From an uncultured Spirochaeta sp. (GTDB taxonomy: Bacteria > Spirochaetota > Spirochaetia > DSM-27196 > Alkalispirochaetaceae): 64,000 bases of DNA. Below the pieces are notes generated by a model. The model was not told the DNA's origin. It saw nothing but the letters and a program-made list of their open reading frames with translations, and ran no database searches. Shown piece after piece: positions 5,346 through 16,981 of this stretch. The stretch spans positions 1 to 64,000 of the forward strand of contig CAJWEZ010000010.1 in the NCBI GenBank assembly GCA_913030605.1, in the 5' to 3' direction. Both the position numbers and the translations under genes were made by a program. Numbering within the stretch: the first letter of the stretch is position 1; every line of letters begins with the position of its first letter.

Positions 5346-6287
5346 TCACCCCGAAGCACCGGCCCCCCACACCCGTTCTTTCAGTCCCGCCACCTCCACC
5401 GTCCCGGCGATCGTGGTCCCGTCGGCGGGCGATATCTCGGACTGCGTCATGTGCTCGGTGGCGGAGGTGACAAACAGCGTCCGCATGTCGGGACCGCCGA
5501 AGGTGACACAGGAGGGTTGGGTCATGGGGACCGGCAGAACCTCTGCCAGCGTCCCGGCGGGGTCGTACCGATCGATGGCCGCCCCGCCCCACCGTGCGCT
5601 GAACACCGTGCCGTCGGTGGCAACGGCCATGCCGTCGGGCAGCCCCGGGCGCTCGCTCGTGTCGATGAACGGCTCCAGGTGACCGATGGTCCCGTCCGCC
5701 GCCGAGAACCTCGCGCGGTAGATCGTACGGGAGAGACTGTCGGTGAGGTACATGACGTCCGCCTCGGGGCTTAGGCCGATTCCGTTGGAAAGACGAACTC
5801 CGTCAGAGACGGTCGACACCGACGACACCGCTGGTGCCGCCGATTCTCCGCCGGCGGCCACTCTCGCGCCGCGGACGGCGAGAAACGCGCCGGTGGCGTC
5901 CGCCGGTTTCCACGCCATGACGCCCGCCACGAGTAGATCGGACGACGCCACGAAGGAATCGTTGAACCGGTAGACCGAGGGATCAAAGCCGGCGTCCGTC
6001 AGGAGATGCTCCGGAACGCCCGGTGCCGGGTCGCCGTTCAGCGTGCGGACCGAGTCCGCCGTCACCACCCACGGTTCGGTCCCGGGGGTCAGAATGATCC
6101 CGATCGCAAATCGCCCCGCGTCCCACGAGCGGATCGGCGCGGCGTCTCCATCGCGAAACGCGTATACCGTGTTCCCCCAGCCGTCGACCCACCAGAGCGT
6201 GCCGGTTCGGTGGTCCCAGGTGGGCGCCTCGCCGAGGGTACACTGGATGTCGGATATCGTTCGCCATTGGATGGTTGTATGTTTCAC
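5346..6287 (-). CDS. SMP-30/gluconolactonase/LRE family sugar lactonase
   Basis: This is a 313-residue six-bladed beta-propeller. The three divalent-metal ligands known from SMP-30 enzymes are visible: Glu in TLGEAPTWD, Asn in LSNGIGLSPE and Asp in LPDGMAVATDG. Members hydrolyse aldonolactones such as gluconolactone, so a role in sugar-acid catabolism is likely; the exact lactone is unknown. I chose the GTG at 6287, because upstream sequence in frame is arginine-rich and unlike the family. No strong ribosome-binding site is seen there, so the start is less certain. The gene is divergent from the periplasmic sensor gene, with about 86 bases between the start codons, so promoter elements must overlap. 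Confidence 0.87.
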   Translation of the reverse strand: MKHTTIQWRTISDIQCTLGEAPTWDHRTGTLWWVDGWGNTVYAFRDGDAAPIRSWDAGRFAIGIILTPGTEPWVVTADSVRTLNGDPAPGVPEHLLTDAGFDPSVYRFNDSFVASSDLLVAGVMAWKPADATGAFLAVRGARVAAGGESAAPAVSSVSTVSDGVRLSNGIGLSPEADVMYLTDSLSRTIYRARFSAADGTIGHLEPFIDTSERPGLPDGMAVATDGTVFSARWGGAAIDRYDPAGTLAEVLPVPMTQPSCVTFGGPDMRTLFVTSATEHMTQSEISPADGTTIAGTVEVAGLKERVWGAGASG

Positions 6288-6373
6288 GTCGGGTATTGTA
6301 TCCGGTCTCGCCGGATCGTACAGGAATTTGCGAACCGCAGGATGCCGCCGTATTCTTTGAGCGGGATCGCCCA

Positions 6374-7513
6374 GTGATACGACCGCGGATCGGGACCACA
6401 GCGTGTGTGATACTCTGTCTGACCGTTGCCCTGGTTCGCGCGCAGGACGATCCAACCCGGATCATCATGTTCTCTCCCACCACCGAAGGAAACACGTACT
6501 GGCCTCAGGTATACGCGATTCTGCGCGACGCGGCGGATGATCTCGGCGTGGAACTCCTCGTTCATGAGTTCGACGTGACCGACCGGTTCGCGCGGGAGGA
6601 GGAGGCCCTGGCGATCCTGCAGAGCACCACGGACATCGATGGCGCCATCTTTTCGGTGGCCGTGGGACAAGCCCCTCCTCTTGTTGCGGAGGCCGAACGC
6701 CGCGGGTTTCCCGTCATGATCAACGGTCCTCTGCACGACCGCGATGTCCGCGCGCTGGGCGGTGGACCGCGCACCCGGTTCTCGCAGTGGGTCGGGTATT
6801 TCTACCAGGACGAGGAGGAAAAGGGGTATCGGCTCGGCCAGATACTGCTCCACGCGGCGCGGGACGATCGAACCGAGGATTCGGGCGCGCCGATAGCGGT
6901 GGCCGGCATCGGCGGCGACCATACGTGGAGCGGCTCCGCGCTGCGGGCGAACGGACTGCGCCGGGCCGTCTCCGACGACGGAAACGCGCGGCTGATCCAG
7001 ATCGTGCCGACGCAGTGGACGGAGCGCGAAGGAACCACGACCGCGGCGCGGCTGCTCGCCCGCTATCCGGAGATCGAGGTGCTCTGGGCCGCCAGCGATC
7101 AGCTCGCGATCGGCGCCGGTAGCGCGATCGCGTCCCGCCCCGGGGAGGCTGCGACGCGTCACGGTGTCGTCACGGGAGGGCTGGACATGTCTCCCCGCGG
7201 TTTGCGTGCGGTTCGCGATGGCGATCTCGTGGCAACCGCATCGAGCACGCTCTTCACCTTTGCCGAAGCCCTCGTCTATCTGTACGACTACATTCACGGC
7301 CACGACTTTGCTGATAACGTGGGATCGACGATCGAGACGTCGATCGAGGTCGCCACCCGGGAGACGGCGACGATGTATATCGAACTCTACGACCGTCACG
7401 CGGGGATCGACTTTCGGAGGTTTTCAAAGGCTTTTGACCCCGACCTTGACCGGTACGATTTCTCGCCTGCGGCCTACCGGCGCGCTCTGCACGCGTCGAT
7501 GCCCAGTGAGTGA
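6374..7513 (+). CDS. Periplasmic substrate-binding sensor (LuxP/ribose-binding-like, Peripla_BP_4)
   Basis: This 379-residue protein has a signal peptide (TACVILCLTVALVRA, cleavage before QDD). A type I periplasmic binding fold follows: IIMFSPTTEGNTYW at the first strand, a DGAIFSVAV strand, the AAGIGGDHTWS-like hinge region (VAGIGGDHTWSG) and LWAASDQLAIGA. Its closest family resemblance is to LuxP-type binding proteins rather than transporter components. It is followed after 3 bases by a membrane histidine kinase and there are no permease or ATPase genes, so it probably presents a ligand to that kinase. The start is a GTG at 6374 chosen to give a proper signal peptide; an in-frame ATG at 6275 would add 33 non-signal residues. 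Confidence 0.82.
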   Translation: MIRPRIGTTACVILCLTVALVRAQDDPTRIIMFSPTTEGNTYWPQVYAILRDAADDLGVELLVHEFDVTDRFAREEEALAILQSTTDIDGAIFSVAVGQAPPLVAEAERRGFPVMINGPLHDRDVRALGGGPRTRFSQWVGYFYQDEEEKGYRLGQILLHAARDDRTEDSGAPIAVAGIGGDHTWSGSALRANGLRRAVSDDGNARLIQIVPTQWTEREGTTTAARLLARYPEIEVLWAASDQLAIGAGSAIASRPGEAATRHGVVTGGLDMSPRGLRAVRDGDLVATASSTLFTFAEALVYLYDYIHGHDFADNVGSTIETSIEVATRETATMYIELYDRHAGIDFRRFSKAFDPDLDRYDFSPAAYRRALHASMPSE

Positions 7514-7516
7514 CCG

Positions 7517-8899
7517 ATGATCCGTGTTGCCGCGGGCAGACCGCGCTGGTGGCAGAGTATCGCATTTCGCCTATCGGTCGCCGTGGCGCTGGCGGGGGTG
7601 GCGATCACCGTACTCTCGGCGACGATCCAGATTCGCATCGACGCCCGATCGGGTCGTGACCGCCTCGAGGAAACGCTCGCCCGTTTCGACGAAACCTTCG
7701 TCCCGGCGATCAGTCGGAGTGTCTTTGACTTCGATCTGGTGCAGACCCGGATTCTGCTCCAGAGTATCACCATGGCTCCGGACGTGGTGGATGCACAGGT
7801 TGAGGAACGCCGGGGCACGGACTACGTTCTCCTGATTCAGGAGTCGGACGCCACCGCCGAACGGCCGAAGACCACCACGTTCCCCCTGGTCGTCACCGAC
7901 GAGTCCGGGGAAGACCGGGTCATCGGGCGCCTGACGGTGACGGCCGACCTCGCGATGCTGCACCGCGCGGTTGTCGATCGCATCGTTCCAACCGCCGCAA
8001 CCAGCGCCGCCGTCGTCGCGGGCGTCTCCCTGCTGATACTTGTCCTCGTCCAGACGATGGTGGTACGACACCTCCGGACCATCTCGCGGTTCGTGGATGC
8101 TCTCACGCTGCCGCAGCTTGACCGGCGCGAGCTGCGGCTCGGTCACCGCGTGCACGTCTTTGGCTCCCGGGACGAGCTCGACCGCATCGCAACCGTGATC
8201 AACGAGATGACGCGACGCCTCGACGCGGCGTACGGCGAGGTGGAAACGATGCGCAGTACGCTGGCATCGTCTCTGGACCAGAAGGAGACTCTGCTTCGTG
8301 AACTCTACCACCGCACGAAAAACAACATGCAGGTCGTGAGTTCGATGCTGGCGCTCCAGGCAGCCGAGTACCCCGATGACAGCTCGATCCGGGACCTTGT
8401 GTCTGCAACGCGGGACCGCATACACGCTATGGCACTGGTCCATCAGAAGCTCTATCAGGCGCAGGACCTGTCCCGGGTAGACATGTCCGAATACCTGACC
8501 TCACTGGTGGACCATATCGTCCATACCCGGAGCAACGCACGTCCACACGTGTCGGTCGCCTGCGACGTTGCCAGCTACGCCCTCGCCCTGGACATGGCGA
8601 TGCCGTGCGGCATGATCGTGAACGAACTGGTAACCAACTCGTTCAAGCACGCGTTCCCCGGCGGTCGCCCCGGAGCGATCCGCGTCGAGTTCCGTCGGGA
8701 GGACGAGGAACGCTTTCGCCTTTCGGTGAGTGACAACGGTGTCGGTGCCGGTCCCGGCGTCGACCCCGCTTCGGCCACCTCGATGGGCCTCACGTCGGTC
8801 CGGTCTATCGGCACGGACCAGCTGGATGGAACGGTGTCGTTCCACCACACCGACGGCTTCGAATGCACGGTCGTGTTTCCGGAGCAGGCGCGGCATTGA
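7517..8899 (+). CDS. Membrane sensor histidine kinase, HisKA_2 type
   Basis: This 460-residue inner-membrane kinase has TM1 at about 15-38, a periplasmic loop of about 115 residues and TM2 at about 157-183. A HAMP-like linker and a coiled region (210-260) follow. The HisKA_2 dimerisation box contains the phosphorylatable His265 (ELYHRTKNNMQVVSS). The HATPase domain shows an N-box (NELVTNSFKHAF), a G1 box (SDNGVGAG) and a GLTSV segment. HisKA_2 kinases typically signal to stress or light response regulators. It lies 3 bases after the binding-protein gene, as expected for a LuxPQ-like pair. No receiver-domain protein is encoded anywhere in this window, so the output partner must lie elsewhere. 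Confidence 0.9.
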   Translation: MIRVAAGRPRWWQSIAFRLSVAVALAGVAITVLSATIQIRIDARSGRDRLEETLARFDETFVPAISRSVFDFDLVQTRILLQSITMAPDVVDAQVEERRGTDYVLLIQESDATAERPKTTTFPLVVTDESGEDRVIGRLTVTADLAMLHRAVVDRIVPTAATSAAVVAGVSLLILVLVQTMVVRHLRTISRFVDALTLPQLDRRELRLGHRVHVFGSRDELDRIATVINEMTRRLDAAYGEVETMRSTLASSLDQKETLLRELYHRTKNNMQVVSSMLALQAAEYPDDSSIRDLVSATRDRIHAMALVHQKLYQAQDLSRVDMSEYLTSLVDHIVHTRSNARPHVSVACDVASYALALDMAMPCGMIVNELVTNSFKHAFPGGRPGAIRVEFRREDEERFRLSVSDNGVGAGPGVDPASATSMGLTSVRSIGTDQLDGTVSFHHTDGFECTVVFPEQARH

Positions 8900-9023: not shown

Positions 9024-11000
9024 GTGGCAGACGGGCAGCCGGCGGAGTACGGGTCCACCATCCGGGACGACGAACGACGCGAGATACTCGATCAGATCGA
9101 TCTCATGACGGAGTCGCACAAACTCGAGGTGACCGACGATCTCTTCGTGGTCGAGGCCGGGAACAAGGGCGTCCTGTTCCCGATCCTGGTGAACGTGGGT
9201 GCGCTCGTGGCCATCCTGGCGTCGGTGTTTCTCCTGACCCGCATTTTCGGCCAGGATTCCGACGCGTTCCAGCAAAGCCGTCGCGTATACGCCTCCGTTG
9301 AAAACCAGCTCATCCGTCAGTTGCGCGAGGAGTCCAGAAACCAGCTCCAGAGCAAGGAATCGGAGATTCGCGATGTCCAGCAACGACTCCAGGCGGTGGC
9401 CGAGGAACGCAACTCGCTCCTGTCGTCCATGGAGGATCGGATTCGCGAGCGTGAGGCGGCCCTCCGCGATCAGTTGGCCCAGGAGCTGGCGACGGAACGC
9501 GATCGACTCCAGGGCCAGGGAATGGCAGGCACTCGTCTCGAGAACCAGCTGGCGTCGTTTGAACGGTCCCGCGCCGAGGAGGCGGATCGCACCCTCGCCG
9601 AGTTTCGATCGCAACTCGAGACGGAGCGGCAGCGGCTGGAGGAAGATCTCGCGCGGGCGCAACGGGAGTACAATAGCCGGCTCGACGAGCTCGCCACCGA
9701 GCGGGACCAGCTGGTCGCATCCTACCAGCAGCGGGAGACGGAGCTGCAGCAGCAACTCGCCATGCGTACACGGGCTCTCGAATCGGACCGTGATGCTGCC
9801 CAGACCGGACTCGCGCAGGCGCAGGCTCGCCTCAGCGAGTTGACCCGGAACCGCGAGGCGGAACGGCAGCTGCAGGCGCAGGTCACCGGCTATCTTTCGA
9901 GCATTCGCGACGCCGTGCAGCGTGGCGCCTATCCCGAGGCCAGGGCCACGATGGCGTCGTTTCGGTCCTTCGTGGATCCACCGGGGGGCACGCCGGTCAC
10001 CTACTCCCGGCGCGAGATGGATCTGTTTTTGGTGAATACACTGGACCGCATGGTGGCCGAGACGATGGAACGGGCCGCAGCGGCGGACTCCATCTCCGCG
10101 GATCTGACCCAGTTGCAGACGCTTCGCTCGTTTCTGGCGGACGGGGCCCGGTTCCGGGACACCGAGAACCCCGAGGACGCCGTTGCGTCGTACTCCGCCG
10201 CATTCGCCAGTCTCCCGGGATTGGCCGCCGCCCACGACTATCTGGTGCAGCGCGAGGTGGACCGGGAACGTCTATCGGCGCAGGAGGTGATCGAGCCGCT
10301 GCGATCGCAAAACGAGCGCTTTGTCGATCAGATCGATACGTTGCAGTCGCAGAATGCGAACCTGACGGATCGGGTCGGCATACTGGGCAGGGAGGTGACT
10401 GACTCCCGGGGCCGCCTGGAAGCGCAGGACACCGCGATGTCCGCCCTTTCCGATCGGATCGCCACGATGACAACCCGCCTCGCCGCGGCGTCCGCCGGCC
10501 TCGACGAGGCCAACGCGCGCGCGCAGGAGCTGAACGCGGCTCGGGACCGACTGGCGGCGCAACTCGCCGCTGCCCGTTCGGAAATCACGTCGCTGCAACG
10601 GCGTTCGACTGCGCTGGATGATCTGGAACGTGCGTACCGGGAGTTCCGTTCGCAAGAGACGGCGGCACTCAACGCCGACGCCCTCGATGAGGACGCCGCT
10701 GCCTTGAGGGGCAAGTTCGCGCTTGATTCCTTCCTGGGGTCGACGGAGGTTCAGCGCTTTTTCCCCGGTGTTCTGGACAGAATCCACACCTACGATGGCG
10801 CCTTTGAGAACGCGGGATACCGGGCCGCGCTTCTGGACGTGAGCGATATCCTCGAGGAAATCTCCTTCGCGGCGGATCCGCCGCAGCAGGCCGCCTACAT
10901 CGAACGTCAGATCGCCGAGAGCGCGGACGACCCGGAGCGACTGCGCCTCCTGTCCTCGCTCCAGCTGCTGCTGTCCGACCGCGCGCTGGGAACACCGTAA
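9024..11000 (+). CDS. Membrane-anchored long coiled-coil protein of unknown function
   Basis: This 658-residue protein has a short cytoplasmic N-terminus and one transmembrane segment at about 50-72 (ILVNVGALVAILASVFLL). Very long heptad-rich coiled coils rich in Gln, Glu, Arg and Ala occupy about 85-300 and 415-540. A C-terminal region of about 110 residues (from roughly 545) looks globular. No enzyme motif is visible. Proteins of this layout in spirochaetes are uncharacterised; a scaffold or envelope-structuring role is only a guess. The GTG at 9024 is chosen because a TATAAT box lies 7 bases upstream. The next in-frame ATG (residue 28) lacks a ribosome-binding site. The gene converges on the envelope operon to its right with a 46-base gap. 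Confidence 0.78.
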   Translation: MADGQPAEYGSTIRDDERREILDQIDLMTESHKLEVTDDLFVVEAGNKGVLFPILVNVGALVAILASVFLLTRIFGQDSDAFQQSRRVYASVENQLIRQLREESRNQLQSKESEIRDVQQRLQAVAEERNSLLSSMEDRIREREAALRDQLAQELATERDRLQGQGMAGTRLENQLASFERSRAEEADRTLAEFRSQLETERQRLEEDLARAQREYNSRLDELATERDQLVASYQQRETELQQQLAMRTRALESDRDAAQTGLAQAQARLSELTRNREAERQLQAQVTGYLSSIRDAVQRGAYPEARATMASFRSFVDPPGGTPVTYSRREMDLFLVNTLDRMVAETMERAAAADSISADLTQLQTLRSFLADGARFRDTENPEDAVASYSAAFASLPGLAAAHDYLVQREVDRERLSAQEVIEPLRSQNERFVDQIDTLQSQNANLTDRVGILGREVTDSRGRLEAQDTAMSALSDRIATMTTRLAAASAGLDEANARAQELNAARDRLAAQLAAARSEITSLQRRSTALDDLERAYREFRSQETAALNADALDEDAAALRGKFALDSFLGSTEVQRFFPGVLDRIHTYDGAFENAGYRAALLDVSDILEEISFAADPPQQAAYIERQIAESADDPERLRLLSSLQLLLSDRALGTP

Positions 11001-11046: not shown

Positions 11047-12282
11047 CTAGTCAAACAGAAACCGGACGCCCAGGGCGGTGTTTCGCATGTCGACGGCCAC
11101 CGTGTCCGTGACCAGGTAACCGGGAACGCGTCGTCCGGAATAGTAGCCCGCCGGAAACGAAACGGACAGAAAATCGTCCACCGAGTGAGGCACGTAGGCA
11201 AGCGGTTCGTACTCGGCGAAAAGGCGGACCCTTGGAAGCAGTGCGTACTCCAGACCGACGGCCCCACCGATTCCCCACGGGGCAACCGGATCGAGCGTCG
11301 CCGGTGCACCGTCGTGGCTGAGTCTCAGAAATGGTCCGAGCTCCGCGTACGGCCGCAGCGTTCGATCCGGCAGGCGAAAGAACATCCCGGCGCGCACGGT
11401 TGCCAGCGAAAGCGGGTTCGACTGCAACAGGTTAGGGGTCGTTCCGGAGGGGTCTTCATTCACCAGGTACAGCCCGGCGGTGTACGTCGTGATGCCGGTT
11501 CTGACATAGATGGTTGCCGGTCTCGGGAACCACGCCGCACGAATCCCGGGAAACTGAAACCCTGCGAGGCGGACGTCCACGGCCCACCGATTGTACGCCA
11601 CCGGGTCCAGTTCAACCGTCACCGGGTCGTACTGGATGTAGACGCTTCGCTCGATCGGTAAATGGCCCGGTGTTTCGCCGCGAATCTCGAGTGCCGCCGG
11701 CGGATCGATCGCGGTTTCCACGACTCCGGTATCTCCGACCGGAATCGGATCGGCGGTGATACCGAACAGCACGGTGCCGGGTGGTGCCCTGACCACGAGC
11801 GAGACACGGTCTGCCGGCGGCGGTGTCCACTGGTCCCGCCTCTCGGTGAGCGGGAACCAGTACGCCTGTTCGATAAAGCGATACGGTACCGGCCTGTCCG
11901 GCGGCGAGAGAACGGTGTCGTCAGTCACGTTCCGAAGGATATCGTGGGACGAGGCGTGCAGCCTCACATCATCCATCGATCCGTCCGCGGTCACGGCGAG
12001 CCATCCGTCGGCGTCACGCTCCCGCGTCGCCGCGACGCGCGCCGGTTCATCGGGCGGTATGCCGAACGAGTCGTATTCGAGGATGATCAGGTTGGGATCC
12101 GACCGTTTGAGCACGGCAATTAACGACTCGTAGATCAGGCGGGCATCTACGGCGGAGAACGATGGCGATGGCTCAAAAAAGACGATCAGTCGGCGCCGCG
12201 GTCCGGAGTCCACGTCCCCGGCCTCACCGTACGCCTGAACCGCCGCCAGAGCCAGGACCGCAACGAGAATCCACCGCTTCAT
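11047..12282 (-). CDS. Secreted protein with PEGA-like segment and C-terminal outer-membrane beta-barrel
   Basis: This 411-residue protein has a cleavable signal peptide (MKRWILVAVLALAAVQAYG). An N-terminal alpha/beta domain (IVFFEPSP, LIILEYDSFG) is followed by a PEGA-like beta domain (VVRAPPGTVLFGI, LEIRGETPGH). The C-terminal third alternates aromatic and small residues (YAELGPFLRLS, VRLFAEYEPLAY) and ends GVRFLFD, typical of a beta-barrel. No catalytic motif is recognised. Its ATG overlaps the stop of the preceding gene by 4 bases (ATGA), so the two are translationally coupled. The preceding gene has the same overall plan, which suggests an envelope-associated pair. It is the last gene of the operon. 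Confidence 0.75.
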   Translation of the reverse strand: MKRWILVAVLALAAVQAYGEAGDVDSGPRRRLIVFFEPSPSFSAVDARLIYESLIAVLKRSDPNLIILEYDSFGIPPDEPARVAATRERDADGWLAVTADGSMDDVRLHASSHDILRNVTDDTVLSPPDRPVPYRFIEQAYWFPLTERRDQWTPPPADRVSLVVRAPPGTVLFGITADPIPVGDTGVVETAIDPPAALEIRGETPGHLPIERSVYIQYDPVTVELDPVAYNRWAVDVRLAGFQFPGIRAAWFPRPATIYVRTGITTYTAGLYLVNEDPSGTTPNLLQSNPLSLATVRAGMFFRLPDRTLRPYAELGPFLRLSHDGAPATLDPVAPWGIGGAVGLEYALLPRVRLFAEYEPLAYVPHSVDDFLSVSFPAGYYSGRRVPGYLVTDTVAVDMRNTALGVRFLFD

Positions 12283-13481
12283 GAGCGCGCTACCACCATA
12301 CCAACGGCGATCCGCGGCAGAACGCCGGCGGTCAACAGCCATCCACGGGAGTCGTAGCTCCCCGGGGTTCCCAGGGCATAGTGAAACCCCGCGCGCAGGA
12401 ACAGCGTCCGACGTCCGGCGGACCACTCGATCGTGGGATCGGCGAGGGACAGATACCAGTCGGTGCGCGGTGCACCGTCGGCGCTGTGAATCCAGGTGCG
12501 GCTGAACCCACCGCCGGCCGAAAAGCTGACCCGTACGGGTGAGGTCACCGGAAAGAACATATAGCCACCCGCGGCAACCGAAAGATCTCCCCGAAGAGCC
12601 GCCCGATCCCCAAAGCGCTGCCGCAGTGCGGCATCCACCTCCACAAACGATGCATCGGGCACCAGATACGCCCGCGCCCCGGTGCCGGCGCCCGTAAAGC
12701 GGCCGAGATCGAGCCATGCCGTCACGGCATAGCGCGTGCTCCGGAGGAGCGGTGGAAGCGAGACGTCGTTCTCCACCGAATCCAGCGTGACGCGCACGTC
12801 CGCCGGATGGTAGCCGCGTTTTTCCACACGGACGGGTACCGTCGTCCCGACGGCGAGGGGCGAATACGGGGCGACAAGGGAGCCGTCGGTCACCGTGCCG
12901 ATCGGCTGACCGGAAAACCGGATCGTGGCGCCTTCATCCGGCGAGCGAAACACGATCGATGCCACGCGGTCCACCCGGGGTGCATCGTCTCCATCCCCCG
13001 CCAGGAACGCCGTCAGGGGGGCCTCCATGCGAGCGATAGCGGCCCGCATCGCGTTGTAGAACGAGAGCCCCGGACGCTGACGCTCAAAGACCGACGCAAC
13101 CACCGCTCCCTGGGATACGTCGTAGATTTTCATCTGGAAGTAGACGGAGCGGCCATCGAGCAGGGTGAAACCGACAAACGCCACATCGGCGCGGGCTTCC
13201 GCCGCCGCGGCGCGGATGCCGCCGGGAGACCAGTCACCACCTCGCCCGTCCCCGTCCGTGGATTCGCCGGGTGCGGTAACCAGCCGCAGCCCCAACGAGT
13301 CCGCGAGTTCCGCCACCGCCGCCCGAACGGTCTCCTCGAACGGTTCTCCGGATCGTTGGTCGGAGAGATCCTGGAAGCTCAGGACGGCCACCGGACCGGA
13401 CACCTCACCGTCAACCGCATGCGCCCGGGCAAGAGCGGACGCAAGGATTCCGAGAGCCACGATCGCTGTGTGCCGGTTCAC
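12279..13481 (-). CDS. Secreted protein: CsgG/TolB-N-like domain, PEGA domain, C-terminal beta-barrel
   Basis: This 400-residue protein has a signal peptide (TAIVALGILASALARAHA). Residues of about 28-160 resemble the CsgG/TolB-N-type alpha/beta domain (GPVAVLSFQDLSDQ, ADVAFVGFTLLDG). A PEGA domain follows (GATIRFSGQPIGTV, VRVEKRGYHPADV), and then a C-terminal region of predicted barrel strands. PEGA domains are known from bacterial surface proteins and are thought to bind envelope components. The start is a GTG at 13481 with AAGGA about 11 bases upstream. It follows the cyclase gene by 24 bases and is coupled to the downstream gene, so it belongs to a four-gene operon. The function is not known. 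Confidence 0.76.
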   Translation of the reverse strand: MNRHTAIVALGILASALARAHAVDGEVSGPVAVLSFQDLSDQRSGEPFEETVRAAVAELADSLGLRLVTAPGESTDGDGRGGDWSPGGIRAAAAEARADVAFVGFTLLDGRSVYFQMKIYDVSQGAVVASVFERQRPGLSFYNAMRAAIARMEAPLTAFLAGDGDDAPRVDRVASIVFRSPDEGATIRFSGQPIGTVTDGSLVAPYSPLAVGTTVPVRVEKRGYHPADVRVTLDSVENDVSLPPLLRSTRYAVTAWLDLGRFTGAGTGARAYLVPDASFVEVDAALRQRFGDRAALRGDLSVAAGGYMFFPVTSPVRVSFSAGGGFSRTWIHSADGAPRTDWYLSLADPTIEWSAGRRTLFLRAGFHYALGTPGSYDSRGWLLTAGVLPRIAVGMVVARS

Positions 13482-13505
13482 CGCTGCACCGTTCCTTCAC
13501 CCACC

Positions 13506-15167
13506 CTATTTGGTGGTAATGACTTCCACGCCGTTCCAGTTCTCCGGAGGCGGGTTGGAGAGGTACCGCTCACACCGTTCCATCATCATCGAGGTTATCC
13601 GCTCCGGGCCGATACGGGATGCTACGTCCGAAAAGGTCTCGTATCCACGGCCAAAATCTCCGGCGAAATACTCTTCCATACCGCGGTTGTGAAGGTCCCA
13701 CACCGCCCGCACCTCCGGCGAGAGTTCGACCGCCGGTGCGTAGATTCGCTCACCCTGGCTCCGTCCCTTGACGGCCACCATGTCGAGGAGACGGCAGTAC
13801 ACGTCATCGCGGACCTGATCGTACAGGCTGGCGGAGATGATGATCTCCTGTTGGTACCGTTTGGTCAGGCCCTCCAGGCGCGACGCCAGGTTTACCATGT
13901 CCCCAATGACGGTGTAGTCCATTTTTCGCTCGGTGCCGATGTTGCCGACGGTGACGGAACCATAGGAAATCCCGACACCGATTTTGAACTCCGGTTTCCC
14001 GAGCGTGACCTGTTGCCGATTGAACTCGTGTACCGACGTCGCCATTTCGATTCCGGCCAGCACCGCCTGCACCGGATCATCGGCGTGCTGAACCGGCGCG
14101 CCGAACAGCGCCATGATGGCGTCACCGATGTATTTGTCCACGACACCCTGCCGGTTCATGATGATATCCACCATCATGGAGAAATAGCGATTCAGGGACC
14201 CGACGAGGTCGTCGGGAGCCATCCGCTCCGAGATCGACGTGAAGCTTCGGATGTCGGAGAACAGGATCGCAAGTTCGCGATCCTCACCAACCAGCATCGA
14301 TTCCGGGTTCTGAAAGAACCGGTCGATCAGCTCCTGGGGTACGTACTTCTGGAAGATGTTGCGGATCTTGGATTCTTTCTTCTGGGCGACGACGGCATCA
14401 AAGGCGTACTGTTTGATCGCGCTGTACGCCTTGTCCAGTTCGCCGACCATGATGTTAAACGTGTGCGACACCTGGCCGATCTCGTCGTCGTGTTCGACCG
14501 CCACTCGCGCGCTCAGGTCGTTGGATGAGATGATCTCCTTCATGGCGCCGGCCATGCGACTGAGCGGCTGCATCGTGTAGCGCACGAAAAAGAGAATCAA
14601 CAGCAGCGAGAACAGGGTGCCGCCGATGATCAACACCACCGTCTGGATGGTGATGCGATTGAGGTAGGTGTAAAACGCCGTCCGGTCCTCGCTGACGATC
14701 ACCAGCCACGAGAACGGGTCGAAGGTGAACCCCATGGCGATCCGCTCGTCATCCGCCACCCGAATCGTCTGGAGCGAACGGATCTCCTCGGACCCGACAA
14801 AGCGCCCCAGGGCGGTACGCTCGTCGTCACTCAGCCCAACCTCCCCGGTTGCCATCGCGACATCGAGGTTCTGGTCCAGCGCGAAAATCAGCTCCGTCTC
14901 GCTGCGAATCAGCCCCTCGGCGTACACCTCGATTCCCGCCTGCGTCGCTCTCTCCATGACCGGGTCCCCCGTGAGCCCGTTCTGGACCAGCAGGTCCCAC
15001 TGACCGGTCATGTAGTTTTCGAGTTCCGATACCTTGAAATCCAGGAATTCCGTCGTAACGCGGTTGACCGCGTTGACCGCCACCAGGTACGACGAGACGC
15101 CGCCGATCACCAGCGTTGCAAGAAGGACCGGGAGGACGACAAACGCGACTTTGAGCCAGATTTTCAC
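13506..15167 (-). CDS. HAMP-domain class III adenylate/guanylate cyclase
   Basis: This 553-residue membrane cyclase has TM1 at 5-30, a periplasmic sensor region of about 140 residues, TM2 at 173-197 and a HAMP domain at 197-250. A catalytic domain occupies about 295-490. Class III hallmarks are present: first metal Asp in ILFSDIRSFTS (Asp305), Lys-Tyr-Ile-Gly-Asp in DKYIGDAIMALFG (second metal Asp), and the transition-state Asn/Arg in IGDMVNLASRLEGL. It should make cAMP (or cGMP) in the cytoplasm in response to a periplasmic signal. The GTG start overlaps the stop of the upstream lipoprotein gene (GTGA), so sensor lipoprotein and cyclase are probably made together. Confidence 0.92.
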   Translation of the reverse strand: MKIWLKVAFVVLPVLLATLVIGGVSSYLVAVNAVNRVTTEFLDFKVSELENYMTGQWDLLVQNGLTGDPVMERATQAGIEVYAEGLIRSETELIFALDQNLDVAMATGEVGLSDDERTALGRFVGSEEIRSLQTIRVADDERIAMGFTFDPFSWLVIVSEDRTAFYTYLNRITIQTVVLIIGGTLFSLLLILFFVRYTMQPLSRMAGAMKEIISSNDLSARVAVEHDDEIGQVSHTFNIMVGELDKAYSAIKQYAFDAVVAQKKESKIRNIFQKYVPQELIDRFFQNPESMLVGEDRELAILFSDIRSFTSISERMAPDDLVGSLNRYFSMMVDIIMNRQGVVDKYIGDAIMALFGAPVQHADDPVQAVLAGIEMATSVHEFNRQQVTLGKPEFKIGVGISYGSVTVGNIGTERKMDYTVIGDMVNLASRLEGLTKRYQQEIIISASLYDQVRDDVYCRLLDMVAVKGRSQGERIYAPAVELSPEVRAVWDLHNRGMEEYFAGDFGRGYETFSDVASRIGPERITSMMMERCERYLSNPPPENWNGVEVITTK

Positions 15168-16981
15168 GGCAGGATCACCATCATCGTCGCCGTTCCGTTG
15201 GCGACGAAGGACAGAGCAGGCGTCTCGTCGGTCGCGGTGTATCCCAGATCCTGGCCGCCGGAACCGGCGTAGGTATTGCCGAGATCCACGTCGACGCTGG
15301 TGCCGGGGTTGATCCAGTTGTCGTAACGCAGCCCGTGAACGGAACCGTCGGCGTTGTAGGATACCAGCGAATACCGGTAGGTCGTTCCGTTGTCTTCCTT
15401 CAGCACCATCTTGGCCAGTCGATCCTGGTTGGTGTGAATGTAGATGATCGTGCCGACGGGGAGCCGGTTCTGTCCGCTGTTGTCCACCGGGGTCTGCGTC
15501 AGGTTGCCACCGTCGAACTCCGACTCGATCTGCGAAAACCCCACGTCAAAGAACGCGCCGGTCAGCGTGTAGGTGGCGCTGGACACGGCGGAGGCGGAGA
15601 ACTCGCCCGGTTTGAGCGCGATCGCCCGGATCGTCATCGTTTCGAGCACCTGCACACTGGTAGAGTAGACCGGCGCCGCGTCGGTGGGATCGGAGCCGTC
15701 GGTGGTGTAGTGGATCGTTGCGTCCGGGGTCTCGGTGGTGAGTTCGACGGACTGCGCGACGGTGTATTCACCACCGGGCACGCTGAACGCAACCGACGCC
15801 GCCGGCGGCAGGTAGTTCTGGACCGCCACCGCCGAGTCCTGGTAGCCGGCCCGCACCGCCACCGCCTTCAGCGTGGTCGGGATCGAAAGCGTCAACGGCC
15901 CGGCGTACTCAGATGACTCACCCGTGGGCGTGGTCCCGTCCGTGGTGTAGTAGATGGTCGCACCGTTCGTCGCCGTACTCAAGGTGACCTGGACATTTGC
16001 GACCTGATCACCCCCGGTGACATTGACGCCGACGTCGCCCGCCACCAGCGTGTACGTCTCGCTCGTCGGGGTCGATGCAAGCATCTGCGACCCCACGGCG
16101 ATCGCACGCACCGTCGTTCCCGTCTGAGACACGGTGAACGGTTCCGAATACTGCGTGGCCTCCTGGGTCGGTTCGGAGCCATCGGTTGTGTAGTAGATCG
16201 ACGCCCCGTCTGTCGCGGTTTCCAGCAGCACGAGTACATCGTTGGCGAATGATCCCCCGGTAGGCGCTATCGTCACCGGCGCCGTCGGCTGATACTCGAT
16301 GGCCCAGGTGCCGGATGCTTCTGAGCTCGTCGTTTTCCCCGGCGCGACCGCGATCGCGCGGATCGTCACGGAGGTGCCGTGGCCGGAGACGCTAACGGGT
16401 GTCTCATACCGGTACGAGGGAGAAACCTGCGGCTCGGTGCCGTCGGTGGTGAAATACACTGCTGCCCCCTCGTCGGGGGCGGATATCGTCACGGTCTGAT
16501 CCGTCGCGAACGAACCCGGCTCCGGGCTGAACGTTGGGGGATTGGTCGCGTCGTAGTTGATCGTGTACGTTGCGGTGGCAACCTCGCTGTCCCGCATCCC
16601 GTCCCGGGTGGCGACGGCGGTAATCGTCATCGATGTCAGGTGTCCCGCCACGGGGATCGGTTCGACAAAAACCGTGGAGTTCTCGTCCGGAAGCGAACCA
16701 TCGGTGGTGTAGCGGATCGTTGCCCCCGACGTCGTCGACGAAATCGAAACCGCCAGGTCGGCGTTGTAGGTGCCGGGGGAGACATCGAACGCCGGCGTCG
16801 CAACCTGCTCCGGGGCCGCCGGCGGATCCACCGGTGTCGGAGTCTCGGTGGGTGAATCGACAGGTACATTCAGCGCGTCCGGCGCGTACACAAACGGCTG
16901 GACACAGCCGCCGACGAACGCGACCAGCGTCAAGACGCCCAATGCGACAACGAGATTCCGAATAGTGCGTCCCACCCTCAC
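15164..16981 (-). CDS. Lipoprotein with five tandem chitobiase/hexosaminidase C-terminal-like (CHB_HEX_C_1) repeats
   Basis: This 605-residue lipoprotein has a signal sequence with lipobox FVGGC (Cys26) and a Pro/Thr-rich linker. Five repeats of about 80-90 residues follow, each marked by a YTTDG-x-x-P-type core (residues near 91, 177, 264, 345 and 424) and a TI[RT]AVA strand. This is the Ig-like module known as CHB_HEX_C_1, common on bacterial surface proteins. The C-terminal 130 residues (IIYIHTNQDRLAKMVL, YRYSLVSYNADG) form a separate domain I do not recognise. I used the GTG at 16981, preceded by a GGGGGGAAG purine run; another GTG at 17020 is possible. It is the first gene of the operon with the cyclase and could be its extracytoplasmic sensor partner. 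Confidence 0.82.
   Translation of the reverse strand: MRVGRTIRNLVVALGVLTLVAFVGGCVQPFVYAPDALNVPVDSPTETPTPVDPPAAPEQVATPAFDVSPGTYNADLAVSISSTTSGATIRYTTDGSLPDENSTVFVEPIPVAGHLTSMTITAVATRDGMRDSEVATATYTINYDATNPPTFSPEPGSFATDQTVTISAPDEGAAVYFTTDGTEPQVSPSYRYETPVSVSGHGTSVTIRAIAVAPGKTTSSEASGTWAIEYQPTAPVTIAPTGGSFANDVLVLLETATDGASIYYTTDGSEPTQEATQYSEPFTVSQTGTTVRAIAVGSQMLASTPTSETYTLVAGDVGVNVTGGDQVANVQVTLSTATNGATIYYTTDGTTPTGESSEYAGPLTLSIPTTLKAVAVRAGYQDSAVAVQNYLPPAASVAFSVPGGEYTVAQSVELTTETPDATIHYTTDGSDPTDAAPVYSTSVQVLETMTIRAIALKPGEFSASAVSSATYTLTGAFFDVGFSQIESEFDGGNLTQTPVDNSGQNRLPVGTIIYIHTNQDRLAKMVLKEDNGTTYRYSLVSYNADGSVHGLRYDNWINPGTSVDVDLGNTYAGSGGQDLGYTATDETPALSFVANGTATMMVILP

Follow-up and report, generated by a model that had tools for sequence, protein, structure and literature searches.

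A cyclase–coiled-coil gene pair kept in a class of spirochaetes, often with genes for predicted outer-membrane barrels: a candidate trans-envelope route to cAMP

The gene of a predicted inner-membrane adenylate cyclase (B) and that of a probably bitopic coiled-coil protein, which we call COIL, recur together and close to each other across a class of spirochaetes, often next to two genes (C and D) whose products are predicted to carry outer-membrane barrels. The starting point was a window of 64,000 nucleotides from an uncultured Spirochaeta sp. (contig CAJWEZ010000010.1, positions 1–64,000 of the forward strand), in which an initial annotation had described a run of four genes, A to D, on the minus strand at 11047–16981, as a possible trans-envelope system controlling cAMP. 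The observation as a whole is confirmed, all four open reading frames being found at that place, and its first interpretation is partly supported: the link between envelope proteins and the cyclase is conserved, but the lipoprotein A, which had been counted as a member, is not kept beside the cyclase, and the constant partner of the latter, COIL (9024–11000), lies outside the four-gene run and had been missed. The features discussed below are the following:

15164–16981, minus strand: gene A, lipoprotein with five CHB_HEX_C_1/Fn3_assoc repeats (PF13290 in five stretches, E 5.5e-88 for the whole protein)
13506–15167, minus strand: gene B (CYC), predicted inner-membrane class III adenylate cyclase (Pfam, transmembrane prediction, invariant residues)
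14640–15104, minus strand: predicted periplasmic domain of B, residues 22–176 (no Pfam family)
12279–13481, minus strand: gene C, signal peptide, TolB-N-like domain (28–161), PEGA-like sandwich (175–241) and 8-strand barrel (247–400), as predicted in an AlphaFold2 model
11047–12282, minus strand: gene D, paralogue of C, FlgT/PelC-like domain (27–157), transthyretin-like sandwich (160–230) and 8-strand barrel (229–411), as predicted in an AlphaFold2 model
9024–11000, plus strand: COIL, 658 residues, short conserved N-terminal head, one predicted transmembrane segment (54–72), long coiled coil and C-terminal tip (linkage, co-occurrence)
9024–9239, plus strand: head and transmembrane segment of COIL, common to COILs with and without barrel neighbours
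10653–11000, plus strand: COIL tip, a C-terminal end of roughly 115 residues that accompanies barrel genes (HMM built from eight other loci, E 3.9e-25)

Layout of the locus and its predicted proteins

The tight packing reported for the four genes is correct: A and B overlap by GTGA (15167–15164), C and D overlap by ATGA (12282–12279), and 24 bases separate B from C. B runs from a GTG at 15167 to 13506, C from a GTG at 13481 to 12279 and D from an ATG at 12282 to 11047; A ends at 15164 and starts at either GTG 16981 or GTG 17020. Scans for promoters and terminators gave no clear excess over shuffled sequence. Note that two genes stand directly before COIL on the plus strand, at 6275–8899: one for a periplasmic binding protein (Peripla_BP_4, E 1.4e-17) and then one for a HisKA_2/HWE histidine kinase, which matches HAMP weakly. 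They are likely a sugar or small-molecule sensor pair.

The descriptions of A as a five-repeat CHB_HEX_C_1 lipoprotein and of B as a HAMP adenylate cyclase agree with the Pfam matches and with the presence of a lipobox-like motif (VGGC) in A, whose PF13290 score over the five stretches, 289.3 bits, is above the cut-off. The B protein comprises, in order, a transmembrane segment, a periplasmic domain of about 155 residues, a second transmembrane segment, a HAMP domain (E 4.9e-10), a catalytic domain (Guanylate_cyc, E 3.2e-23) and a conserved C-terminal extension, the transmembrane segments being predicted at residues 3–21 and 177–195. The catalytic domain scores 82.7 bits against PF00211, the curated cut-off being 21.9. 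Residues D305, K345, D349, D417, N426 and R430 are invariant in 29 aligned cyclase sequences; we take them to be the metal-binding Asp pair, the adenine-selecting Lys/Asp and the transition-state Asn/Arg. With its catalytic residues intact, B is predicted to be an adenylate cyclase. The C-terminal extension (13506–13755, minus strand) contains a tryptophan, W544, and a terminal lysine, K553, that are invariant in the 29 sequences. The N-terminal halves of 23 cyclases all match HAMP (23/23), and no sensor family was found in them at a convincing E-value. The catalytic domain and HAMP are common to B and the CyaB-type membrane class III adenylate cyclases, the catalytic domain of CyaB (3r5g) being among the closest solved relatives of B (E 6e-48). 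Unlike membrane cyclases such as CyaB, B has COIL as its constant neighbor and a periplasmic domain that matches no family in Pfam.

C and D both have a signal peptide and are paralogues (hhalign 99%, E 2e-18); Pfam and NCBIfam searches of the two proteins gave no convincing family. The barrels that had been predicted in C and D are supported by the AlphaFold2 models, whose input alignments of relatives comprised 44 rows (C) and 36 rows (D); in these models each C terminus forms an 8-strand barrel (mean pLDDT 89.3 and pTM 0.76 for C, 89.1 and 0.69 for D). The modeled C barrel (residues 247–399) matches OprF with a VIA Z of 17.9 (rmsd 2.0, 132 aligned residues) and OmpA with a Z of 17.2, and the modeled D barrel (residues 229–410) matches OprF with a VIA Z of 17.7 (rmsd 2.7, 128 aligned residues). 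Thus the models display the OmpA-type 8-strand fold, although no Pfam barrel sequence family is matched convincingly by C or D at E ≤ 1 (PagL reaches E 0.31 in one of 24 C relatives).

The N-terminal α/β domain of C has VIA Z values between 10.3 and 11.9 overall, with HpaA (11.9), TolB (10.6–11.5), FlgT (11.0) and PelC (10.4) as matches; residues 29–159 superimpose on the N-terminal domain of TolB (2hqs) with a Z of 11.5 and an rmsd of 2.7 over 117 residues. The corresponding domain of D matches FlgT (VIA Z 11.3) and PelC (10.6), and TolB more weakly (9.7), while its sandwich matches transthyretin-like domains (carboxypeptidase D, Z 10.3). Weak FlgO profile matches are also found. C and D therefore seem to share the periplasmic fold of FlgT, FlgO, PelC and, for C, HpaA, but, unlike in those proteins, it continues here into a sandwich followed by an 8-strand barrel; the PD40 β-propeller of TolB was found in neither, the sandwich and barrel of the models standing in its place. 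The initial annotation had spoken of PEGA-like segments. This holds loosely for C, where PF08308 reaches E 0.14 and 12.5 bits for a cut-off of 20.8 (with E ≤ 1 in three of 24 C relatives), and does not hold for D, for which the Pfam search gave no match, PF08308 included. Given the structure models and their fold matches, a TolB-N/FlgT/PelC-like wording fits the periplasmic domains better than a PEGA-like one.

Regarding COIL, a single transmembrane segment is present near the N terminus in 47 of 49 complete sequences, and the K/R count is higher before this segment than after it in 37 of the 47, an N-in bias. This arrangement suggests that COIL is probably a bitopic protein with a periplasmic coiled coil. 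Contrary to the family trend, the positive charge of the window's own COIL is higher after the transmembrane segment (within 15 residues). Cysteines are rare in COIL bodies (two in 30,503 residues), which fits the periplasm, but coiled coils are also cysteine-poor. No PDB relative of the head was found by sequence, and TolA is not among the best 25 of the 35 families matched by 22 COILs (Pfam, E ≤ 0.01). We also considered COIL as a P83/100 protein, the family of that antigen being, as we assume, PF05262; this was rejected, with no match among the families listed for the window's COIL (Pfam, E ≤ 0.1) and none among the best 25 of the 35 families for the 22 COILs.

Conservation of the cyclase, COIL and barrel genes

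Most of 61 related genomes contain long cyclase relatives; relatives of C are present in 29 of the 61 and relatives of D in 31. A contig scan with the cyclase sequence of the window alone found no relative; a second scan, with an alignment of cyclase N termini (A5), retrieved 231, and 80 of these were retained. Neighborhoods were compared in the window and 40 fetched loci at first, and in 97 distinct loci after the addition of named contigs, nearly all of which are labelled as spirochaete MAGs; genes in these loci were called with a codon-usage script and not with a standard gene finder. The order that emerges from the 97 loci starts with the cyclase and C, continues with a middle gene and D, in many cases followed by a post-D gene, and ends with COIL in convergent orientation. 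In 47 of the 97 loci C is the next gene after the cyclase, and in 21 of the 47 the two overlap by 4 bases. Recurring as it does across a spirochaete class, the cyclase–C–D order appears to be more than chance, and B–C–D, usually with an extra gene between C and D, is, judging from these sequences, an old module.

The window has neither the middle gene, which most relatives have between C and D, nor the post-D gene, and a search of its genome with the middle-gene profile, run without a positive control, gave no match. A lipobox-like motif is found in about two thirds of these additional genes (25 of 35 middle genes and 12 of 18 post-D genes), and neither kind shows a convincing Pfam family. That they are further paralogues of C and D was rejected, as no profile matched. 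Against the PDB, the middle-gene profile hit two WD-type proteins (E 9.7e-8 and 3.5e-4) with no single stretch passing, a result that is not relied on.

Whereas B, C and D are kept together in relatives, A is not. The initial annotation would have been refuted by a lack of conserved gene order, and this check speaks in its favor for three of its four genes. A-like proteins occur in 10 of the 61 related genomes, the window's own included, and only one other genome, G010, has an A-like gene adjoining a cyclase, on the opposite strand. A constant membership of A in the cyclase locus is ruled out by its absence beside the cyclase in relatives other than G010; from the sequence comparison, it may have been added locally. 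As a guess, it would stand in for the middle and post-D genes, which are lipoprotein-like and which the window lacks.

The link between the cyclase and COIL is closer. In the 394 genomes of the class, the cyclase family is found in 130 and COIL in 127 (E ≤ 1e-30): both are present in 122 genomes, COIL only in 5, the cyclase only in 8 and neither in 259 (Fisher 1e-84, a value that ignores shared descent). COIL adjoins the cyclase in 62 of the 97 loci, and in 16 of 17 when only loci with a long flank at each end are counted. Pair distances were taken from 150 listed matches each for the cyclase and COIL, both from longer lists: among the 150 cyclases listed, 96 are on the same contig as a COIL of the list, and 95 lie within 15 kb of it. 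These 95 listed pairs comprise 56 divergent pairs less than 1 kb apart, one divergent pair further apart, 29 convergent pairs more than 1 kb apart and nine pairs on the same strand; in the loci L109 and L112, COIL sits between the cyclase and C. Because the pair is kept in several orientations, its linkage outlives rearrangement. Complete single-contig genomes (e.g. G008, G052 and G244) also carry the system.

The barrel genes follow the pair less strictly. In 55 of 69 rows, D is no more than 15 kb away from a cyclase or a COIL (13 weaker rows out of 82 being left out), and 54 of the 119 genomes with a strong cyclase, eleven genomes with weak matches being set apart, have no D. Since the cyclase–COIL pair persists without barrels in many genomes, the barrels are not needed for this core pair. 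On the cyclase tree, from which five of the 97 loci with short cyclases were left out, the barrel label changes 6 times against a mean of 25.8 after shuffling, i.e. barrel-linked cyclases cluster; in L130, L131 and L186, the label rests on C- or D-like genes located elsewhere than immediately after the cyclase.

Several individual records may be mentioned here. L154, from a MAG labelled Gracilinema caldarium, has the cyclase and C. The window's own genome contains a second cyclase–COIL pair (G000:C27, L136 9941–13810), which is divergent and without barrels, and whose COIL has a DLVY-type end. The cyclase of L171, on a contig labelled Nitriliruptoria (Actinomycetota), adjoins that of the spirochaete locus L119 on the tree, probably owing to a binning error, and the MAG labels of L139 (Borreliella garinii) and L179 (Treponema denticola) are also doubtful. 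A cyclase relative at G038:C118:45865–47520 has one in-frame TAG and is either a pseudogene or the product of a sequencing error.

The C-terminal tip of COIL and the barrel genes

The C-terminal end of COIL varies with its genomic context. In barrel loci, it is a helical-looking end of about 115 residues, the tip; in several barrel-less, divergent loci it displays a DLVY-like motif (6 of 22 barrel-less rows versus 0 of 34 barrel rows). The COILs of Treponema-type MAGs have the coiled coil itself as their C terminus. A tip HMM was trained on eight loci. With these excluded, it detects the tip in 23 of 25 loci that have barrels and in 3 of 21 that do not (Fisher 8e-8, again ignoring shared descent); with them included, the counts are 31 of 33 and 3 of 21. 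A COIL fragment (L121), a duplicate (L241) and COILs truncated at the 3′ end are left out of these numbers. Two of the three barrel-less exceptions, L125 and L214, have a D relative elsewhere in the genome. In L159, the tip is present and the genome has no D, and in L130 and L131 a C relative is present and no clear tip is seen; this check of the genomes covered 19 of 20 loci (all but L200). On a tree of COIL N termini, the tip and the barrels each change about four times, and a sign test on independent pairs cannot reach 0.05. Thus, the tip–barrel association in these sequences is strong if loci are counted and weak if evolutionary changes are.

A candidate trans-envelope device and its alternatives

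With a constant COIL head accompanying the cyclase and a tip accompanying the outer-membrane module, we infer a bridge: the locus may be a trans-envelope device in which COIL would couple the outer-membrane barrels to the cyclase, so that the state of the surface would set cAMP. We give this reading, drawn from gene comparisons and structure models, an even chance. More specifically, (i) C and D would form 8-strand barrels in the outer membrane, with their TolB-N-like and sandwich domains in the periplasm; (ii) a single helix would hold COIL in the inner membrane, its conserved head lying in the cytoplasm and its coiled coil reaching across the periplasm; (iii) the C-terminal tip of COIL would dock on the barrel module; (iv) what is read there would be the condition of the outer membrane, such as its load or spacing, a ligand or contact with a surface; and (v) COIL would relay the signal either to the cyclase, by way of the periplasmic domain and HAMP of the enzyme, or, through its own head, to the cytoplasmic side, and cAMP would change. 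In the window, A may be a local, exchangeable surface sensor or adhesin. A control of cAMP by envelope state or contact, as proposed in the initial annotation, is plausible on these sequence grounds. More tentatively, and with confidence short of even, the system may be seen as a modular receptor, in which the exchangeable tip of a TolA-like bridge would read the barrels and the constant head would drive a dedicated cyclase; the outer membrane itself would then be the sensor, and barrel-losing lineages would have lost or replaced the tip.

The evidence can be read in other ways. If the cyclase and COIL were the signaling unit and the barrels an older operon partner with a job of its own (porin, adhesin or envelope assembly) and no input to the cyclase, one would understand that the pair is kept without C and D in many loci, that 54 of the 119 strong-cyclase genomes have no D and that the COIL head and transmembrane segment are common to both kinds of locus. 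We nevertheless consider this rather unlikely, as the COIL tip tracks the presence of barrel genes and the cyclase–C overlaps are retained across families. The TolB-N-like fold of C and the bitopic, helical character of COIL, reminiscent of TolA, would also suit a Tol-like mechanical tether of the outer membrane made of COIL and the barrels, the cyclase being only co-regulated with it or tuning its expression via cAMP. Unlike a tether of general use, COIL is almost never found without the cyclase (5 of 127 genomes), which makes such an arrangement unlikely. Finally, we hold it to be very improbable that these are simply neighboring spirochaete envelope genes with no joint function: spirochaete gene order may persist for other reasons and the Fisher tests ignore descent, but the genes stay linked while their order and orientation change (divergent, convergent or co-directional).

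The proposed coupling of barrels to the cyclase through COIL has partial counterparts among known systems. With Tol-Pal, it would share the fold of the TolB N-terminal domain, seen in the model of C (VIA Z 10.6–11.5), and, by analogy, the anatomy of TolA, COIL having one N-terminal transmembrane segment, a long helix and a C-terminal domain; it differs in that C and D have a predicted membrane barrel and no PD40 propeller, and in that a cyclase takes the place of the TolQR motor. In RcsF-OmpA-IgaA and FecA-FecR, an outer-membrane component informs an inner-membrane regulator, as proposed here, but the output is a phosphorelay or a sigma factor, whereas here the cyclase would make cAMP.

Among described loci, the TP0483–TP0486 region of Treponema pallidum comes closest to the window locus, being an operon-like run with a protein that has a long Q/A/E-rich segment, a HAMP-type membrane cyclase and a downstream secreted protein that looks like a barrel by eye. 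L239 (4109–10565), which is probably T. pallidum, encodes a protein with such a segment, a cyclase and two further proteins of 640 and 362 residues, the shorter of which ends in what looks, again by eye, like a barrel; from gene order and position, these would be TP0483–TP0486, TP0485 presumably being the cyclase and TP0484 presumably also lying in the region. Our cyclase profile matches the L239 cyclase at 1.9e-74, and the N-terminal-half search gave at best 8.1e-11 in that genome; the profiles of COIL, C, D, the middle gene and the post-D gene gave no match at E ≤ 0.1 among the 10 predicted proteins of L239. With the COIL, C and D profiles unmatched, homology beyond the catalytic domain, and hence identity of the two systems, was ruled out; judging from these profiles, the T. 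pallidum region would be an analogue at most, and not a homologue outside the catalytic domain. In passages of PMC2408589 and PMC13343974, TP0486 is described as the antigen p83/100, and in passages of PMC5421087 and PMC6685089, TP0483 is described as a fibronectin binder and outer-membrane protein.

A described equivalent of the gene set was not found in the open-licence literature. To our knowledge, the stimulus of most bacterial membrane cyclases is unknown and signaling across the unusual envelope of spirochaetes has hardly been studied. Comparing genomes here names the likely partners of one cyclase family, namely COIL, C, D, the middle gene and the post-D gene, the last two being lipoprotein-like in many loci. 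The system being widespread and also present in complete genomes, signaling from the outer membrane to cAMP becomes directly testable, and the T. pallidum analogue makes a parallel question on the fibronectin-binding TP0483 worth asking.
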